A stretch of 26,967 bases of DNA, taken from the IMG/VR virus record IMGVR_UViG_3300031772_000234, positions 1 to 26,967 of that record, one strand, 5' to 3'. How positions within the stretch are numbered: position 1 is the stretch's first letter; every line of letters begins with the position of its first letter. Of the stretch, positions 5,448-26,699 are shown piece by piece. The notes beneath the pieces were generated by a model that was not told where the DNA came from, made no database searches, and saw only the letters and a program-made list of their open reading frames with translations. Made by a program: the position numbers and the translations under genes. This DNA comes from a virus.

Positions 5448-5982
5448 TTGCCAACTCCTTGAACAGCGCGTAGGGGAGGACTGCGAATGCCTCCCGTGCT
5501 TTGGCGAACTCCACAATGAGAGCTGGCTTCTCGTCCGCCTCCATGGCCAGTCCTGTGATCTTCGCAAGGTCGAGGAGTTGGATTCGATAGTAGTGGAGGC
5601 TGTCGGTGTACTTATGCTCCAGCCTCCACTCTCCCATCACACGCACGTCACCCTTGTAGCCTCGTAGTCGTGTCCCACCAGACCCTGGCTGTGGACGTCC
5701 ACCAAGGTCGTCGGCCAACACCTTCTCCAGCCTACGAGAGGTCTTGATCCGCTCCTTGGACAATCGGCTCTTTTCAGGGTCTGGCGCTAGCTCAAGGTTC
5801 AGGTCGATTTCTACGCCGTCTTCAATACATGCGGCGCAGAGATGCGACTGCCGCAGGATGCGTCCGCCCTCACCTTCGCGTCGCATGAAGTTGATGCACG
5901 TGGTACTCGTGACCTGTTTGCACCGGTCGCAGTGGGTACCGTACCCCTCTTCGCTCAACTGGAGATAGAACGGGGCTTTCAA
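5425..5982 (-). CDS. Zinc-ribbon PD-(D/E)XK nuclease, possibly Holliday junction resolvase-like
   Basis: 185 residues starting at a TTG (5982-5980) that overlaps the RecA-like gene stop as TTGA, with GAGG 7 bases upstream. The next Met (33) would remove the first two Cys. The N-terminal domain has HCDRC and LCAAC (C18, C21, C49, C52), a zinc ribbon. The C-terminal domain has Glu86, GDVRV (Asp112) and LEHKYT (Glu122-x-Lys124) after a Gly/Pro-rich loop (GGRPQPGSGGTRLRG), the order found in archaeal Hjc-type and phage resolvase-like endonucleases. Substrate is not certain: junction resolvase or general endonuclease are both possible. It is placed between RecA and the Cas4-like nuclease, so a recombination role is likely. 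Confidence 0.75.
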   Translation of the reverse strand: MKAPFYLQLSEEGYGTHCDRCKQVTSTTCINFMRREGEGGRILRQSHLCAACIEDGVEIDLNLELAPDPEKSRLSKERIKTSRRLEKVLADDLGGRPQPGSGGTRLRGYKGDVRVMGEWRLEHKYTDSLHYYRIQLLDLAKITGLAMEADEKPALIVEFAKAREAFAVLPYALFKELANAPDNNR

Positions 5983-7370
5983 ACTAGCCTCACGTGCGCA
6001 AGGCCGGCATGGACATACAGCAACTCTTTCAGCGTCCGTACCAGCTCGGGTTCGGTCTCCAGCAATCCCAACATCTTCTCCTCACCATGCACGGGGTCCA
6101 TCTCGATTTCTGGGATCACATACCGGGCTCCGTCTTTCTTCTCGATGACCTTGTGCTTCAGGCACTGGGTCAGGAGGTCACCATCGGTGTCGACTTCCAG
6201 TGGGTCGAAGTAGAGACTGAAGGTACCGGAGGCACCTTCATGCGTGCCAGACTTGCCCTTAGTGACCTCCCAATTGACCTCCTTGCCGATCTTCACGTCC
6301 TTCAGCCTGATGGGTGCCCCAGGGTAGAGGGAGAGGCGGATGAGGTTCACGTGTTGGAGCGCATAGGCTCCTTTGCTGTCGTAGGCTCGTCCGTAGGTCT
6401 TGCCACCGCCAAGGTTGAGCTTCGCGCGAGATTGCCGGATGGCAACGATCGTAGTCTCGTTGACCTCTACATGGGGATCGAGTCCTTTCCAGCCGCAGTC
6501 GGGACACAGGTACTTGAAGTTGATGGTCTTGGTGTCGGTGACGTGTTTGTCCAATGGGGCGCGAGCACAACCAGGACATCGGAAGATGGGGTTTAGCGCG
6601 TCTAAGATCTTCTTCGACCACTTGGTTTGAAGCATGGCCGGACTTGCTACCTGCGGGGTCTCATCCAGCGCGGCCGTGTCTTCAGGTGCTGTTAGCATCA
6701 TGTCCCAGCTGTCTATACCAATAGCTTGGTAGATGTTGTGCTCTACGGCGTAGACAATGCCATCTAGCACGTTCTCAGCTGGTCCTTCGAAGATGTGGAA
6801 CTCGCCAACTCCAGGGCACTCAATGGCTTCTTTGATTTCTTGTTTTGTCAGCGGCTCTTCCCCCCGCAGCTTGCGAGCACGTTGGGTGACGTCGATGTCG
6901 TACTTGCTCATCTGGACACGCACTCCACACATTTGCGCGAAATGCTTGTCTACGAAGTTCTCAAAGCACGCCATCGCCACGCACGCGCGCTCTCCGTAGT
7001 TCCGTTGGACTTCAGCGAAGTAACGGTAGAGCAGGTAGTTCTTCCCCGTGCTCTCCGGGCCATCCACCTGACAGACACCGCCGGCTGGCAGACCACCACC
7101 GGTTGAGAGATCGATGGAGGTGATGCCGTTGGGCCGGCGGAGGTCGAAAGCATTCCAGGCTTCACTTGCAGGACGGATGATCGGTCCGTTGTTACCGAAC
7201 CGCATGTTGATGGCGAGTGCCACCTGCCTGGGATCGGGTTTGGGGAACCGCTCCCATTCGCCCTTGGCCTTCTCCTGGCTCTCGGCCTTGGCCTTCCTGC
7301 CCTTGGCCGCGGGTTTGTCCTCACCACCTACGGACTTTGCCGTGACCCTACTTGGGGCTTTTCTTGACAT
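5979..7370 (-). CDS. recA: RecA/UvsX-like recombinase with inserted zinc ribbon
   Basis: 463 residues from the second ATG of an ATGATG pair (7373/7370); AAGGAG lies 7 bases before it. The first 45 residues are a basic Lys/Ala/Gly tail. The RecA core follows: Walker A GPESTGKN (about 104-111), catalytic Glu in CFENFVDKH, Walker B AIGIDS (Asp220), AIRQSR with the nucleotide-sensing Gln313, and ALQHVNLIRLSL like the segment after loop L2. Between Walker B and L2 there is an insert with CPGC...CPDC (265, 268, 289, 292), a zinc ribbon not found in E. coli RecA. The Walker A Ser/Thr is replaced by Asn (AAC codon), which could alter Mg-ATP binding. The protein should form filaments on ssDNA for strand exchange. 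It overlaps the portal-like fragment gene upstream and the nuclease downstream. Confidence 0.88.
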   Translation of the reverse strand: MSRKAPSRVTAKSVGGEDKPAAKGRKAKAESQEKAKGEWERFPKPDPRQVALAINMRFGNNGPIIRPASEAWNAFDLRRPNGITSIDLSTGGGLPAGGVCQVDGPESTGKNYLLYRYFAEVQRNYGERACVAMACFENFVDKHFAQMCGVRVQMSKYDIDVTQRARKLRGEEPLTKQEIKEAIECPGVGEFHIFEGPAENVLDGIVYAVEHNIYQAIGIDSWDMMLTAPEDTAALDETPQVASPAMLQTKWSKKILDALNPIFRCPGCARAPLDKHVTDTKTINFKYLCPDCGWKGLDPHVEVNETTIVAIRQSRAKLNLGGGKTYGRAYDSKGAYALQHVNLIRLSLYPGAPIRLKDVKIGKEVNWEVTKGKSGTHEGASGTFSLYFDPLEVDTDGDLLTQCLKHKVIEKKDGARYVIPEIEMDPVHGEEKMLGLLETEPELVRTLKELLYVHAGLAHVRLV

Positions 7371-7674
7371 CATCAGGCTCCTTCTCGTAGGGCTCACTCC
7401 CGAGGTCTGGATCCAAGGGAATGTTGACATTGGGATTGGGTTTAGGCGGCACGCCTTTGTGGGCGAGCTTTTCCTTCTCGACCTTCGCGGGGTCGATCTC
7501 GACCGCGTACTTGTCCATGAACATCATCCTTTCTGGCTCTCTCACGTCGATGTATTCGTGAAAGATCTGCTCGTTTGCCTTCCGCAGGACCGCCAAGTAT
7601 AGGAGGTCCTGTAGCAGTCGTTGGATCAGGGGTATGCCCCAACCCTCAGTGTGCTTCGGTCCAACTTTCTCCAT
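7348..7674 (-). CDS. 108-residue protein resembling an internal segment of the portal protein
   Basis: The ATG at 7674 overlaps the end of polA by 29 bases; a GGAG lies about 12 bases upstream, so translation may be coupled. Residues 11-42 align without gaps to the portal of this same window once the portal intein is removed (portal residues 260-284 joined to 711-717): both start GWGIPL and share Leu, Asp, Tyr-Leu, Val, Lys-Ala, Glu, Ile, Glu, Ile at matching positions, 17 identities in 32. A following REPERMMF...DPAKV also recalls the RxPERxxF...P.K segment of T4-type portals. The C-terminal 40 residues are Pro/Lys/Asp-rich and probably disordered. It is far too short to be a portal. It may be a remnant, a portal-derived regulator or a chance likeness; I favour true homology. 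Confidence 0.7.
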   Translation of the reverse strand: MEKVGPKHTEGWGIPLIQRLLQDLLYLAVLRKANEQIFHEYIDVREPERMMFMDKYAVEIDPAKVEKEKLAHKGVPPKPNPNVNIPLDPDLGSEPYEKEPDDVKKSPK

Positions 7675-10600
7675 GTCCGATGTCCACTCCTAACGGGATA
7701 CTGAGACCACGAAAGGGGAAGCCCTTCAGGATATCGGGTACGGGCTCAAATGGATTCTCCATGAGCGTGGTGATGAGTGGGATGGCTTCCTCCAGGTTTT
7801 CTGGTGGGACTTCCATCATGATTTCGTCGTGGATCTGCAAGATTTGACGAACGCCTAGATCACGCAGACGCTCACTCTCTCTGCTCTCCCAATCGCCTCC
7901 GCCCTCTAATCGGAGCTGAGCCAGACGTGCGACGTCAGCAGCCCCACCTTGGATCCTGCTGTTGACGTCCTGCCGTAGGGCGCGGGCAGCCAACCTACCA
8001 GGACGTTCAGGGACCCACTTCTTATCTCTAGGATTGAAGTATCCTTCGCGCCAGTCGGCATCGGCATCCGTTAGCCGCCGAATACGTCCGAGGTAGGTGT
8101 AGGCCTCGAGATTGTGTCGGGTGAACTTGTGGATCTCTTCTATGAATGCTTGCACGCGCGGATAAGGTTCGAAGTACTTCTTGATCTTCTCTTCCGCTTC
8201 TTCGTAACTGATTCCTAGATCCGCTGCTAAGGCTCGGGTACCTTTGGAATAATTGAGCCCAAAGCCGATTGTCTTAGAAGTACGGCGATATCCAAGAAGC
8301 TCATGGATCCATTCTGGCCACTCACCTTTGGGTACCTCTTCCTTTTCTAGACGTCCGCCCTCTTTCTTGGCACGAACGATCTCTTCGTAAGGGACGTTGT
8401 ACATCAAGGAGGCCGTCCCCATGTGGATGTCCCAGCCGCGGCGGATGACGTCCCGCATGTTCTCATCACCCGACAGGTCGGCCATGATCCGCATTTCGAG
8501 CTGTCGGTAATCAGCACAAACTAGATCATAACCTTGCCCCGGCATGAAGGCCCCACGAATGTTGTAGGGGTCATCCTCGGGGTTCCGAATATTTTGAAGG
8601 TTGGGGTTGCGGCTGGAGTTATGCACACAGATTTCATTTGCTACGAATGCATGAGTGTCTTCGACCTCCAAATCGTAGACCGGTAACACAGGACCTGGTT
8701 CTACCGAGAGGATTTCGTGGTTGTTGACTAGCCCATAGCACTCAAGCAGTTTCTTATAAGTATAGAATCCCACCGATAGTGATTCGTAGCAATATGGCTG
8801 TGGCAGAAGTGACGCGTCTAGGAGGCGTCGACGGCTGATGAACTTGCCATCAGCTCCATACCTCTTCCGTATCGCTTTTAAGTCTAAGCCCGTTCTTTTG
8901 TACTCGCGTTGTAGGACATTGAAGTCTACGCCACTCAGTTGGATGATCTTTTTGATTTGTCCTTTGCAAACAGCCGCCCATTTCAGGAGTGTGCTACGAG
9001 GTATCTCTTTCCAACTAGAGTTCAATGGTCCTACCCGCATACTCGCGCTAACTACGGCCTTAGCTCGAACATCTGGTCGGAGTAGAACAGATGTCCTGAA
9101 CTGCTTGAGTTCCTCGCTGCAATGTGTGCCGTGATACCGAGAGTGGTAGACTTTTGTCTGCCCTTCTAGGTTAGAAGGGCAGTTATTCAACTTGTCCTCG
9201 TCTTTGTGGTGGATCACCTCTCCTGACATGCCCAACGCCCGCCCCACAAATACGTTTTCTCGTATCTCCTTACCTAGTCTAGGGTACAAATGACAGTAAC
9301 CATATGATTGTTTCACGCCAGCGTGCAGGGATAGAACACGGTCTTTAGGTTTTAGATCCTTTGCCCTTACCCAATCTCCCGAAATCAGGCGAACCTCATG
9401 GTCTGGGGTCAAGAGTAACTCGCCCGTGTGCTTGCGACCGCTACCCTGCCATTTGATCCTGACTGTCTTCTTCGTGCCAGTTTGGCCCGCCCACAGTACC
9501 TTCTTCAAGTGCAACCCACCGCGACGATCGTAAGAGTATACTAGGTCCCCCTTCTGTACTGCTTCGATGGGTTTGCCGTTTGGGAACTTATTACGATCAC
9601 AGGGCATCTGTATTTTAGTACCGGCGGCGACACAGAGGCGGCCAGTTACCGTCACGTGCTGATTGAGCGTTGGATGGATCCGGCAATGGCTGTCCGCGCG
9701 CTCGACCATACCCTTGATGTAGGTACCCTCGGTCTTCTGTAGGTCTCGCCATTCTAAGATCATCTTGCTGAATTCACAACCATCCTGAGCCCAGGCTGCT
9801 AGCACGTTTTCGTTCAGCTGTGGCTTGACGTTCCTACTCTCACCGCCCTTGGTCATGGTGAGGGGTGCCCTCTCCATGTCTTCGAAGAATAACCGCCGCA
9901 ATTGGGTGGGAGAGCCGATATTGACTTCTATGCCCGCCAGCTGATTGAACCGCTTAGAGATCCTCTCCATGTCTCGTTGGATGGGCCCCTCCAACTCGCG
10001 CAGATATCCGATATCGATCATGACCCCGCGGCGTTCACAGTGGTAGAGGACCTTTGAGTACGGTACCTCGACCTTATTGAAGAGATCCCACATGCTGTAG
10101 CCGTAGAGCGTAGGGATGTGCTCGAGTTTGTCCTTGAGATAACGATGGACAGCTAGACTAGCCCAGGCGTCTAGAGAAGCGTAGTCGATGGCGACCTGCG
10201 GCTTCTCCTGCATGATACGCAGTAAGGTGTCTTGATAGGTTTCGTTTCGGGACTTCCTGAAGGTGGACTTGAACTCCTCCATGTTGAGGTGGAGGTAGCG
10301 CTTGGCTGCTTCCTTCAGACCATGGCGCTTGTTCTCGTCGTATAGCCAATCCATCACCAACGTGCAGTGGATGGGCCCCGCTAATAGTGGGACCCCGCTG
10401 TTAGCGAGGATGTTGTTGTCGTAGTTGGCATTGGTCATTACCCATGTGATGGAGGGATTGTTGCCCAGCTCCTTGCTGAAGATCTCCAACATCTCGGGGT
10501 CAAGACAGAATCGTTCCCCCAGGTCAGAACAAAGGGACCAGAACAAGACATGGTCCCTGGAGATGTCCAGGCCCGTGGTTTCGGTATCAACTGCGCAGAT

Positions 10601-10684
10601 ACGTCTGTCTCGGATCATCCGGCAGATTTGCAGCATCCTTCGGGGGTCGTCTACCCACTCAGGGATTGGTAGCTTGCGCCACAT
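7646..10684 (-). CDS. polA: Family A DNA polymerase with 3'-5' exonuclease, interrupted by an intein
   Basis: 1012 residues before splicing, about 673 after. I choose the ATG at 10684 (AAGGA 4-5 bases upstream); a TTG at 10744 overlapping the ssDNA-binding gene stop would add 20 residues encoded by a hairpin and is less likely. Counting from that TTG, the exonuclease motifs are AVDTETTGLD, TNANYDNN and YASLDAWASL. Polymerase motifs: TVTGRL-intein-SSRNPNLQN, motif A CADYRQLEMR, motif B RRTSKTIGFGLNYS and motif C QIHDEI. All key acidic residues are present, so the spliced enzyme should be active. There is no 5'-3' exonuclease domain, as usual in phage replicative PolA. It replicates the phage genome with the neighbouring primase, DnaB-like helicase and ssDNA-binding protein. 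The intein must be removed for activity because it splits the conserved TGRLSS motif. Confidence 0.95.
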   Translation of the reverse strand: MWRKLPIPEWVDDPRRMLQICRMIRDRRICAVDTETTGLDISRDHVLFWSLCSDLGERFCLDPEMLEIFSKELGNNPSITWVMTNANYDNNILANSGVPLLAGPIHCTLVMDWLYDENKRHGLKEAAKRYLHLNMEEFKSTFRKSRNETYQDTLLRIMQEKPQVAIDYASLDAWASLAVHRYLKDKLEHIPTLYGYSMWDLFNKVEVPYSKVLYHCERRGVMIDIGYLRELEGPIQRDMERISKRFNQLAGIEVNIGSPTQLRRLFFEDMERAPLTMTKGGESRNVKPQLNENVLAAWAQDGCEFSKMILEWRDLQKTEGTYIKGMVERADSHCRIHPTLNQHVTVTGRLCVAAGTKIQMPCDRNKFPNGKPIEAVQKGDLVYSYDRRGGLHLKKVLWAGQTGTKKTVRIKWQGSGRKHTGELLLTPDHEVRLISGDWVRAKDLKPKDRVLSLHAGVKQSYGYCHLYPRLGKEIRENVFVGRALGMSGEVIHHKDEDKLNNCPSNLEGQTKVYHSRYHGTHCSEELKQFRTSVLLRPDVRAKAVVSASMRVGPLNSSWKEIPRSTLLKWAAVCKGQIKKIIQLSGVDFNVLQREYKRTGLDLKAIRKRYGADGKFISRRRLLDASLLPQPYCYESLSVGFYTYKKLLECYGLVNNHEILSVEPGPVLPVYDLEVEDTHAFVANEICVHNSSRNPNLQNIRNPEDDPYNIRGAFMPGQGYDLVCADYRQLEMRIMADLSGDENMRDVIRRGWDIHMGTASLMYNVPYEEIVRAKKEGGRLEKEEVPKGEWPEWIHELLGYRRTSKTIGFGLNYSKGTRALAADLGISYEEAEEKIKKYFEPYPRVQAFIEEIHKFTRHNLEAYTYLGRIRRLTDADADWREGYFNPRDKKWVPERPGRLAARALRQDVNSRIQGGAADVARLAQLRLEGGGDWESRESERLRDLGVRQILQIHDEIMMEVPPENLEEAIPLITTLMENPFEPVPDILKGFPFRGLSIPLGVDIGHGESWTEAH
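8618..9634 (-). other. Intein with HNH homing endonuclease in PolA
   Basis: 339 residues inserted between TGRL and SSRNPNLQN of the polymerase. It begins with Cys (CVAAGTKI, block A), has a block B TPDHEV, and ends VYDLEVEDTHAFVANEICVHN, a textbook block F/G with penultimate His and terminal Asn; the +1 residue is Ser. In the middle, VIHHKDEDKLNNCPSNLE is an HNH endonuclease motif with the conserved His-His and Asn residues. All splicing residues are present, so self-removal is expected. The insertion point is a highly conserved active-site motif, as favoured by inteins. The exact ends follow from the clean join of the extein motif. Confidence 0.95.
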
Positions 10685-22654: not shown

Positions 22655-23421
22655 ATCCGATCATGGCCCTGAGCATGGCCCAAGAGCTAACGAAGTCGGC
22701 GACTCTGCCGGCCACAGTACGACGACTGCTTGCAAGAGGGGCAGGGCGTGCGCTTGCACAAGGTGGCTTGGTGCGCACGGTTGGTGGTGGTGCAGTCGGT
22801 GGTCTACTTGGAGCTATCCCACGAGGAGAAGAAGGTACTCCCGAAGAGATGTCTGCTCGACGGAGGTCCAGGATTGCTAAGGGTGTTCTTTTGGGGGCGG
22901 CTGGTGGTTACGCCTCGCCACTCCTTACATCTGGTGGACGCCAACGAGCGGTTGAAGGCGCAAAGAGGTTCTACTCCAGAGAGAAGCATGGCCTCCTAGG
23001 TGGAGCGGCCCCCGCAAGTATGGAACATGGTCTTAGTCCTGCGAGTTTGCTAGAGCACCAGCAGGCTGTACAACAGGGAGCGACCTCCATTCCTGGAGTC
23101 TTGAAGGGCATGGTTACCAAGCCCGGTGAGCTCATCCGAGGTGGGTGGAATCAAGGTGGCACGTTTGGCAAGGTAATGACATTGACGAGCGCGGGGATGG
23201 GAATCAAGGACGTCATGGATCCTGAAGCTCCTGGTGGGAGGGCGGAAAAGGCCGGTCGCATGCTCGGTGAGACTGGTGGTTATCTTGTGGGCAGCAGGTT
23301 GCCGTTCATGAGCAACATGCTCTTCAGTACCGCTACCGGCGCGGCGGGTAAATACCTCGGCCGAGCGGTGGACAAAGTTACGGGCAGCGGACAGCAGCCC
23401 CTACCGCAGGCGGCCCCATGA
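22651..23421 (+). CDS. Gly-rich 256-residue protein, possible internal or membrane-active virion protein
   Basis: The ATG at 22651 overlaps the previous stop, and its own TGA overlaps the portal ATG (both ATGA), so three genes are translationally chained. Residues 1-60 contain Arg-rich helix and a Gly zipper-like segment (TVGGGAVGGLLGAIP); another hydrophobic Gly/Ala segment (KGVLLGAAGGYASPLL) follows. Basic and Gly-rich segments alternate to the end, with FGKVMTLTSAGMGIKDV and GGYLVGSRLPFMSNMLF. Such composition occurs in phage internal or DNA-ejection proteins that interact with membranes. Codon use is less biased than in its neighbours. Function is inferred weakly. Confidence 0.75.
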   Translation: MNPIMALSMAQELTKSATLPATVRRLLARGAGRALAQGGLVRTVGGGAVGGLLGAIPRGEEGTPEEMSARRRSRIAKGVLLGAAGGYASPLLTSGGRQRAVEGAKRFYSREKHGLLGGAAPASMEHGLSPASLLEHQQAVQQGATSIPGVLKGMVTKPGELIRGGWNQGGTFGKVMTLTSAGMGIKDVMDPEAPGGRAEKAGRMLGETGGYLVGSRLPFMSNMLFSTATGAAGKYLGRAVDKVTGSGQQPLPQAAP

Positions 23422-26400
23422 ACGACTTTGGTGGAAGCTTTGGAGCCGGCCGCTTTAGCCGTGCTCGAGGTCGAATTCAAGGCGGACAAGGGCAAGGGAT
23501 CAACTACCCAAGCCCGTTCTTTGATGTCGCCCACACCTATCTCCCTACCACCGTCAAGCAGATGTTCCGGTGGTGCCGGTATTACTTCTTCGTCCATCCT
23601 CTGATCAACGCCGCCATCTTCAAGATGTCCCAGTATCCGATCACAGATCTGGTGTACTTCAGCAAGGACCCGCAGCTCAAGGACATGTGGAAGAACTTCC
23701 TGGAGACGCAGCTGATGTACCGCGGTTTCCAGGAAGAAGTTGGACTGGATCACTTTTGTTACGGTAACGCCCTCATCAGTATCTTCTTCCCTTTCATCAA
23801 GATGCTGGAGTGCAGGGAGTGTCATTACAGTGCGCCGGCCAAAACCACCAACTACTACTTCCGCAACTTCCAGTTCTACTGGCAGTGTCCACGTTGTCAG
23901 CAGCATGGTGAGGCCAAGGTTCACGACAACTACGTGAAGTCCTCCCGCGGGATCCGACTTCTGCGCTGGAATCCGGAAGACATCGACATCCGCTACAACG
24001 ATCTGAATGGCGAATATACCTTCTTCTACGAGATGCCCGTGCAGTTGAAGAACGACATCATCATGGGCAAGAAGAACGTCGTGGAAGAAGTCCCGCAGGT
24101 CTTCATCGAGGCTCTTCAAAAGCGCAAGGCCGTCGTCCTCTCGCGCGATAACGTCTATCACTTCAAGCGTCCGACGCTGGCAGGCAAAGACCGGGGATGG
24201 GGCATCCCGCTCTTGCTGCCGGTACTGAAAGACGCCTTCTATCTGCAGGTGATGAAGAAGGCCCAAGAGTGTGTGTCCCTCAGTTCTTTGCTTGAGACCA
24301 AGAACGGTCTCCTTAGGGCTGATGATGTTGACGTAGGGGGACAAGTCAGGACTCATACTGGCCAATGGCAAAGGGTGGAAGAGAAGTGGTATCGAGACGC
24401 GCGTGAGGGGGAAATTGGTCGAAAGATCATTCTGACTGGGTTACGCTCTTTTAGTGCAACTTACTCTCCTCAACATCCGATCTTCACGATTCGACGAAAT
24501 GAGGAGAATCGTAGGATCGACACGAAGGACGCACAACGGTCGTCTGTAATCTTGCGGAACCCCCATCTCTATGAAGAAGTCCTTTGCCCGGCTGAACAGC
24601 TGGAAATTGGTCAGTATGTCCTTTACCCCCGGGCACTGCCATCCTATCCCACTGACGTAGATGTTGCTGCCTACACAGGCCTGACAACCACTGATGGATA
24701 CGTCTACAGCGGTTGTGGGGAAGAGACGGCTGTCGCATTCGAGGCTCTCGAACGTGGTGAGCATGTGTTTCATGATAACGCTGGCCGTGTGGCAAAAAGA
24801 ACCATGAAAGAGGGGCGCACGCCAAAACGTATGGCTAGTGTCCGCGCAATGACTACGGACTTTGCCTATATCTTGGGTTGGTATGCTAGAGACGGTAGCT
24901 GTGGGTCTCGACATGTGGGCTTCTCTTTGGGTAAGGATAATGACGCCAAACCTTTGATGGACGCCATTCGACAAGAGTTTGGTGTCGAACCTACAATTGA
25001 GGAGGGAGTGTCCATCAATACGGTGGTTTTGTCTGATACGATCGTCAGACATCTAATCAAGGGAATGATCCCAGGAACTGCCCGGCACAAACGAGCGCCA
25101 ATAGAGATCCTAGATGGGGTGAATGAAGTGAAGTTGGCCTATCTGAGGGGTCTTTGGGATGCGGATAGGTGTAGAGGGGTTCGCAAAGGATCTGTTTCTA
25201 CCAGTAGTAGAGAACAGGCGTATGATGTGTACCGGCTATTGCTTCACTTTGGATGTATTGCAACGGTAGACAAACTGGGGCCCAAGTCTAGCATTATAAA
25301 TGGCAAGGAAGTGCGCGGATCCGGTTCTTATAACGTGAATACGTGCGGTGCATCCTTTGCCCGATTACGATCTCTGTGGGAGTGTGGAACCGGCCCGGAA
25401 GTAGCATCGGGCAAGAGTGGCTTCTTTTGGAAGGAATACTTTGCTACTCGTATCTGTGCGGTGGAGGAGGTAGAAGAAGATCAGTATATTGACTTCAAGA
25501 TCGCAAATGATACCACCTTTTGTACTCCCGGCACAGCTACCAAAAATTCTATCCTACTTGAGCACATCGTGCCACTACGTGTGCTCTTCCCACAGGCCGG
25601 CAGCGCTACCAGCGATCCATTTACGTCGATCAATCTTGGTGATTGGAAGGATCATATCGCTGATGAAATAAATCATTGGAGAGTCGATCAAAACTACATT
25701 CCGATCCTCCCATTGCCTATCGGGCAACAGACTATTGGTGGTGACGGCCGAGCCCTACTTCTTGGGCAAGAGATCCGAGTATGGAGTGAGCAGATCATTA
25801 CGGGTATGGGATTTCCTCAAGAATTGATCTTCGGTGGTGTGTCTTTTAGTGGCAGCAATGTCAGCCTGCGGATGTTGGAGAACTTCTTTCTCGGTTACAT
25901 GATCAATCATCGTCGACTCCTGCACTGGGTAATGAACAGGATCTCCAGCTACATGAACTGGAGCATGATTGATGTCCGCTTCAAGCCGTTCAAGATGGCG
26001 GACGACCTCCAGCGCAAGGCCTACAACTTCCAGCTCAACCAGGCGGGAAAGATCTCCGACGGTACGTTGTTGGCTGATGCTGACTTCGATGCCGAGAAGG
26101 AGGACGAGGCCATCAACCTCGAGACTGCCAGACGGGCCGAGAGCATGAAGAAGAGCAGGTTGTCACAGGCGGAGATCGAGGGCGAAGCGCAGATGGTTAT
26201 GACGCGCTACCAGCTTAAGAGCCAGAAGGAACAGGCACAGATGCAGGCGTCCATGACGCCAGCCCCGGGTGAGCCAGGAGCTGAGGCTGAAGGCGTGGCA
26301 GAGGGTGGGATGCCACAGCCAGTAGGCGAGCAACAGGCTCAGCCTGGCCAGCCTCAAGGGCAGCCACAAGAGCAGCCCGCTATGCCTGGAGCAATGTCAG

Positions 26401-26699
26401 CCTTCCAGTCGCCTCTGACTTTAGGCGCTCAGCAACCGGCACCCACAAGTCCTGAACAAGCGGGGGCATTGAACATCGACTTGCTGGCAGCCGCCAGTCA
26501 GCTCGCTCATTATCTGGCTAAGCTCGACGATCGCAGTCGGCAGATGGCGTTGCAGAACCTGCAGACGAGCTCACCCGAGCTGTACGAGACCGTGGTCGGC
26601 ATGCTAAATAGTTTGGGGGTTGGCCAACAGGCACCCGCGGGGCAGCCCCTGCCTGAGCAGAGGCTACCCACGCGGTCACCCGGTGCTGCACTTATCTAG
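23418..26699 (+). CDS. Phage portal protein, interrupted by an intein
   Basis: 1093 residues before splicing; 667 after removal of the 426-residue intein. The portal is the dodecameric ring at one capsid vertex through which DNA enters and leaves. Portal-like features: an N-terminal region with VKQMFRWCRYYFFVHPLINA, a four-Cys zinc ribbon (CREC...CPRC, 132-160), HFKRPTLAGKDRGWGIPLL, the intein, then SILLEHIVPLRVLFPQAG, a DWKDHIADEINHWR helix, GGDGRALLLGQEIRVWSEQI and GMGFPQELIFGG, followed by helical regions. The last ~130 residues are Gln/Pro/Ala/Gly-rich, then a helix (NIDLLAAASQLAHYLAKL), and a Pro-rich end. The start overlaps the preceding stop (ATGA). Terminase and capsid genes probably lie further right or elsewhere. 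Confidence 0.88.
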   Translation: MNDFGGSFGAGRFSRARGRIQGGQGQGINYPSPFFDVAHTYLPTTVKQMFRWCRYYFFVHPLINAAIFKMSQYPITDLVYFSKDPQLKDMWKNFLETQLMYRGFQEEVGLDHFCYGNALISIFFPFIKMLECRECHYSAPAKTTNYYFRNFQFYWQCPRCQQHGEAKVHDNYVKSSRGIRLLRWNPEDIDIRYNDLNGEYTFFYEMPVQLKNDIIMGKKNVVEEVPQVFIEALQKRKAVVLSRDNVYHFKRPTLAGKDRGWGIPLLLPVLKDAFYLQVMKKAQECVSLSSLLETKNGLLRADDVDVGGQVRTHTGQWQRVEEKWYRDAREGEIGRKIILTGLRSFSATYSPQHPIFTIRRNEENRRIDTKDAQRSSVILRNPHLYEEVLCPAEQLEIGQYVLYPRALPSYPTDVDVAAYTGLTTTDGYVYSGCGEETAVAFEALERGEHVFHDNAGRVAKRTMKEGRTPKRMASVRAMTTDFAYILGWYARDGSCGSRHVGFSLGKDNDAKPLMDAIRQEFGVEPTIEEGVSINTVVLSDTIVRHLIKGMIPGTARHKRAPIEILDGVNEVKLAYLRGLWDADRCRGVRKGSVSTSSREQAYDVYRLLLHFGCIATVDKLGPKSSIINGKEVRGSGSYNVNTCGASFARLRSLWECGTGPEVASGKSGFFWKEYFATRICAVEEVEEDQYIDFKIANDTTFCTPGTATKNSILLEHIVPLRVLFPQAGSATSDPFTSINLGDWKDHIADEINHWRVDQNYIPILPLPIGQQTIGGDGRALLLGQEIRVWSEQIITGMGFPQELIFGGVSFSGSNVSLRMLENFFLGYMINHRRLLHWVMNRISSYMNWSMIDVRFKPFKMADDLQRKAYNFQLNQAGKISDGTLLADADFDAEKEDEAINLETARRAESMKKSRLSQAEIEGEAQMVMTRYQLKSQKEQAQMQASMTPAPGEPGAEAEGVAEGGMPQPVGEQQAQPGQPQGQPQEQPAMPGAMSAFQSPLTLGAQQPAPTSPEQAGALNIDLLAAASQLAHYLAKLDDRSRQMALQNLQTSSPELYETVVGMLNSLGVGQQAPAGQPLPEQRLPTRSPGAALI
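24270..25547 (+). other. Intein with LAGLIDADG homing endonuclease in the portal protein
   Basis: 426 residues between extein KKAQE and SILLEHIVP. It starts with Cys (CVSLSSLLETKNG, block A) and has a block B-like YSPQHPIF. Two LAGLIDADG motifs are visible, FAYILGWYARDGS and LAYLRGLWDAD, the form of a monomeric homing endonuclease. The end is DTTFCTPGTATKN with +1 Ser. The last residue is the required Asn, but the usual penultimate His is Lys, a noncanonical variant seen in some functional inteins. Removing it restores a continuous portal segment. Codon bias is lower than in the upstream extein. Confidence 0.92.

Follow-up and report, generated by a model that had tools for sequence, protein, structure and literature searches.

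A small open reading frame between polA and recA is a composite of two unrelated parts, a leader that sequence comparison strongly supports as derived from a phage portal protein and, joined to it in frame, a mini-gene with its own start. It lies in the window analysed here, the whole stretch of 26,967 nucleotides at positions 1 to 26,967 of the IMG/VR record IMGVR_UViG_3300031772_000234. We consider it probable (roughly 0.6) that a portal fragment was captured at this place long ago and has been kept as a helical leader, with the mini-protein existing in a long and a short form. The locus is a clear case of a piece of a packaging gene moved into a phage replication module and selected there within a composite gene. 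The setting is a large group of uncultivated phages, with 377 portal relatives found in one scan of IMG/VR. All relatives compared below are metagenomic contigs, referred to by L numbers, and the features of the window are listed in Table 1.

Table 1. Features of the window that bear on the composite open reading frame
Feature	Position	Strand	Remarks
Composite ORF (108 aa and stop)	7348..7674	minus	Portal-derived leader joined in frame to mini-gene
Residues 1-9 (MEKVGPKHT)	7648..7674	minus	Overprint the polA 3' end in another frame
Portal-derived segment, residues 10-42 (EGWGIPLIQRLLQDLLYLAVLRKANEQIFHEYI)	7549..7647	minus	Matches portal 259-284 and 711-717
Junction, residues 43-52 (DVREPERMMF)	7519..7548	minus	Varies among relatives
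Shine-Dalgarno-like AGAAAGGA	7527..7534	minus	8 nt 5' of the mini-gene ATG at 7518
Mini-gene (MDKYAVEIDPAKV...GSEPYEKEPDDVKKSPK, 56 aa, residues 53-108)	7348..7518	minus	Has a start codon and a ribosome-binding site of its own
polA (DNA polymerase family A)	7646..10684	minus	HNH-containing intein; start set at MWRKLPIPEW
recA/UvsX-like recombinase	5979..7370	minus	Start set at MSRKAPSR; overlaps mini-gene end
Portal protein with LAGLIDADG intein	23418..26699	plus	Intein is residues 285-710 (24270-25547)
Parental portal segment	24195-24269 and 25548-25568	plus	

Similarity between the small protein and the portal

The first-pass annotation had noticed that the small protein resembles the portal segment carrying the intein, with 17 identities in 32 positions over portal residues 260-284 joined to 711-717. 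Our recount gave the same number, and both pairwise and profile searches confirm that the similarity is real. BLASTP of the small ORF against the portal extein gives 42 bits (E 9e-10), and the Smith-Waterman score is 99, compared with a maximum of 55 among 2,000 shuffles (Gumbel P 1.5e-8). A hidden Markov model built from 36 related IMG/VR portals, from which the window's own portal was left out, picks out the portal (6e-70) and the small ORF (5e-9) among the 359 stop-to-stop frames of the window, the next best frame being at 3.2. Profile comparison matches in the other direction as well: a profile made from four relatives of the small gene matched the portal ORF in every one of 49 other phage records, with the leader columns falling on the portal ORF and the remaining columns on the mini-gene where it was present. 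The longer leader of L034, used alone and containing no portal information, retrieved portals in 4 of 15 genomes (best E 1.7e-5, 39% identity over 51 residues); its match to portals reaches the sequence DNIYHFKRPTL, upstream of GWGIPL. The leader of L031, used alone, scored 5.6 bits against the portal profile, below the best of 10,000 shuffles (8.8), and judged from these comparisons its link to the portal runs through L034 and is not direct.

It is very improbable that two amphipathic helices have come to resemble each other by chance or convergence. The shortness of the match and the lack of any Pfam or PHROGs match for the small proteins would fit such an origin; against it stand the pairwise E value, the rank of the small ORF among all frames of the window and the consistent recovery of portals in the reverse search. 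The shared GWGIPL, moreover, falls in a loop, outside the helix. We regard chance similarity as refuted on statistical grounds. Searches of PDB sequences with the small protein and with the portal gave no match, and in the phages collection tblastn gave none, or chance matches only, when queried with the small protein or with the leader of L031 or L034. Among open-licence papers, we found nothing relevant on portal fragments or partial portal duplications.

The predicted fold of the parental protein shows it to be a portal. All 50 PDB matches listed for it by Foldseek are portals or connector, neck or portal-vertex complexes, those of T4 gp20, lambda and HK97 included, and a BFVD search agrees, with several matches named portal. 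The AlphaFold2 (AF2) model of the portal has a helix at residues 267-288, to which the single helix predicted for L034 (residues 61-90) corresponds; the model of the small protein itself was poor (pLDDT 48) and was left out of the fold search. The stretch of the small ORF that descends from the portal is a loop and a helix (residues ~10-45), and what leader residues 10-42 share with the portal family is the loop and helix at portal residues 259-291. Compared with a portal of ~650 residues, the small ORF lacks the rest of the wing, the stem, clip, crown and C-terminal region, as well as the four invariant portal cysteines (132, 135, 157 and 160). It is a portal-derived fragment and not a portal. 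In the portal family these four cysteines are arranged as CxxC pairs, which points to an insertion in the portal protein that binds zinc.

The mini-gene between polA and recA

By comparison with its relatives, the second part of the ORF (residues 53-108) is a separate, independently started mini-gene that is unrelated to the portal. The idea of a portal-derived mini-protein in a replication block can therefore be kept for the leader and has to be given up for these residues, which occur elsewhere without the portal segment. A search of related phages at the polA-recA junction, as had been proposed, found the mini-gene in about 20 related contigs, most of which lack the portal segment, and the leader in few. 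The mini-gene follows polA directly in L062, L068, L078, L081-L083 and L089, an HU-like gene in L026, L037, L038, L039, L084 and L087, and another ORF in L033 and L066. Whether the mini-gene stands alone or follows an HU-like or other ORF, its internal start is preceded at a distance of a few bases by a purine-rich Shine-Dalgarno sequence in the loci that were read. One contig of a metagenome-assembled genome, found in a search of genome contigs, carries the mini-gene and lacks the leader, and annotated phage recA relatives gave remote partial matches only.

The members of this unnamed family share their position, their own Shine-Dalgarno sequence and two motifs, M[ED]KY[GA]V.IDP..K at the start and DPN.N[IV]P.DP..G[ST]EP[FY]EK at the end, to which the window protein conforms; as defined here, the mini-protein is a marker of the junction between polA and recA in these phages. 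The mini-proteins of L026, L036, L039, L065, L085 and L089 have four cysteines, or a quartet of cysteines and histidines, with the spacing of a zinc ribbon. In the other relatives these have been lost, and residues 53-108 of the window protein contain no cysteine. The mini-protein thus appears to be a degenerate or eroding C4 zinc ribbon, whose cysteines were kept in the deep members of the family but lost in the clade of the window. In the window, the portal-derived leader stands in frame with it.

The surroundings of the mini-gene vary. An HU/IHF-like DNA-binding gene placed directly after polA precedes it, or is fused to it, in many relatives; the ORF upstream of it in L026 matches Pfam Bac_DNA_binding at 2e-15, a family for which the window's small protein gave no match. 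In L033 and L066 the leader is replaced by another ORF of about 60 aa ('GYKWTITTPSGVTWEMTAP'), which is likewise in frame with the mini-gene. In L027, the closest relative, and in L003 and L004, the mini-gene is separated from recA by a free-standing gene for recombination endonuclease VII (L027:7534-8000; Pfam 1.3e-24), which is absent from the window.

Where leader and mini-gene meet, the first-pass annotation had seen in REPERMMF...DPAKV a reminder of a motif of T4-type portals. This does not hold up. Relatives read RRSEEEP, TETERSNF and MDEREAF at this place, DPAKV belongs to the mini-protein and not to the leader, and a T4 gp20-type motif (RAPER...) was rejected, REPERMMF not being conserved in L027, L031 and L034. 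AGAAAGGA encodes part of the PER within REPERMMF, the Glu-Arg codons being the Shine-Dalgarno sequence of the mini-gene. Since REPERMMF is explained by the junction and the start of the mini-gene (Shine-Dalgarno sequence and ATG), it is not to be ascribed to portal ancestry.

Age, selection and possible role of the leader

The leader occurs in the window phage, in L027 (also L003/L004), in L031 and in L034, and none was found in 49 further portal-bearing records. L031 and L034 have leaders of about 100-120 residues that are 45% identical to each other; in the window and L027 the leader is shortened and starts right at the polA stop (7646). There, GWGIPL is included only if translation begins at the ATG at 7674, which is also kept in L027, as is the overlap of 29 nt between the composite ORF and polA. 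A tree of polA and recA unites window/L027, L031 and L034 with L033/L066, L035 and L062 in a single clade, which has a support of 0.998. The leader is missing or replaced in these last four members of the clade, and it is therefore dispensable. A single capture with later losses would explain this most simply, although the portal fragment may have been captured repeatedly. The portal of the same phage ranks only 10 of about 48 for the window segment, and 27 for L031. With the leader no closer to its own portal than to others, the copy must be old, and a recent duplication of the phage's own portal was rejected by this ranking.

Between the window and L027, dN/dS is 0.24 for the leader (residues 10-36), 0.22 for the mini-gene and 0.09 for polA and recA, an estimate of selection that comes mainly from this one pair of sequences. 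Neutral simulation of the leader value gave P of 0.0005-0.03, depending on the segment and the transition bias. Judged by these values the leader is under purifying selection. Four lineages, with identities of 45-66%, have kept its frame open and have conserved the helix core L..YL..L..A. The earlier suggestion of a decayed second portal is thus right as to an origin from a portal fragment, but what has come down is an ancient, selected remnant and not a decaying one.

These data also bear on the possibility that the leader is a passive relic, a scrap of portal DNA left at the polA-recA junction by break repair, which would have no function as a protein and would be kept open only by its position between translated genes, letting ribosomes run into the mini-gene. 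The turnover of the junction, at which relatives lack a leader or carry HU-like genes, other ORFs or a gene for endonuclease VII, the loss of the leader in several clade members and the free divergence of residues 43-52 all speak for it. We nevertheless think it unlikely, though deserving of some weight: the leader is as constrained as the mini-gene, its helix core has been conserved in all four lineages, and in leaderless relatives the mini-gene follows polA directly, so no bridge is needed.

In the reading that we favour, a portal fragment consisting of a loop and a long helix (portal residues ~240-290) would have been captured between polA and recA in the ancestor of the clade, just 5' of an older mini-gene that encoded a degenerate zinc ribbon of about 55 aa and had its own ribosome-binding site. 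The fragment has remained open and in frame with the mini-gene. From the arrangement of the starts, the locus probably yields two proteins: initiation at 7518 would give the short mini-protein, and initiation at the ATG at 7674 a long form of 108 aa that carries the portal-derived amphipathic helix. This helix would make a protein-protein contact (with itself, with the portal or with another replication or packaging protein) and so modify the mini-protein. Nested genes in which an internal start gives a long and a short product are known, lambda C/Nu3 being an example. The present locus resembles these in having a single frame with an outer and an inner start codon, of which the inner has a ribosome-binding site of its own, but differs in that its extension derives from a structural gene that is unrelated, and most relatives lack it.

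At positions conserved in at least 90% of portals, the leader retains 13 of 20 residues, compared with 3 of 12 at the remaining positions, and portal-hydrophobic positions 267, 285 and 288 are now polar, as would be expected for a helix with fewer partners. One may speculate that the portal piece was recruited as a binding helix on a replication or recombination accessory protein, where it couples replication to packaging or acts as a decoy for the host's immune sensors of portals, but we hold this extension of the favoured reading to be doubtful. In its coupling version, the helix would dock on the normal partner of the portal's helix, and if it does bind portal partners, replication and packaging would be linked directly at the molecular level.

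A leader whose role is itself that of a portal-binding or decoy peptide we rate as improbable. Such a peptide would regulate or interfere with assembly of the portal ring early in infection, or occupy host sensors of the Avs4 type that recognise portals; packaging proteins, portals among them, are known to trigger Avs systems (PMC12931631). The retention of residues invariant in portals and the neighbouring early replication genes would suit this role. The leader is, however, only about 35 residues long, it is rare in the portal-bearing group (0 of 49 further records), and the change to polar residues at 267, 285 and 288 suggests a different partner.

Inteins and other features of the window

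The match crosses the intein site of the portal, and the small gene itself is intein-free, as had been noted at the outset. The first-pass annotation had proposed an intein-free copy affecting homing, which would make the small gene a decoy or donor for the portal intein. We find this hardly credible, since DNA identity between the small gene and the portal is no higher within 15 bases of the intein site (57%) than over the upstream 75 bases (60%), compared with 73% for the empty-site portal of L096, and most portals of the family have no intein anyway. The match spans the intein site because this site lies mid-way in a conserved portal helix.

An intein at the portal site used in the window is also present in L006, L007, L008, L009, L010 and L045, and most of the collected portals are empty there. 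Inteins or similar insertions are found at several different sites in the portals and polymerases of the group. Examples are the portals of L009 (a portal frame of 1978 aa) and L044 (1634 aa) and polA of L029/L035/L036/L038/L068, and some portals have insertions at more than one site. Near the contig end, at 540-1736 on the minus strand of the window, an ORF that resembles a lipoprotein contains an FGE-sulfatase domain (7e-33), and its signal is followed by proline/aspartate-rich repeats (HKPDPAKPDG..., SRPDSIKPDS).
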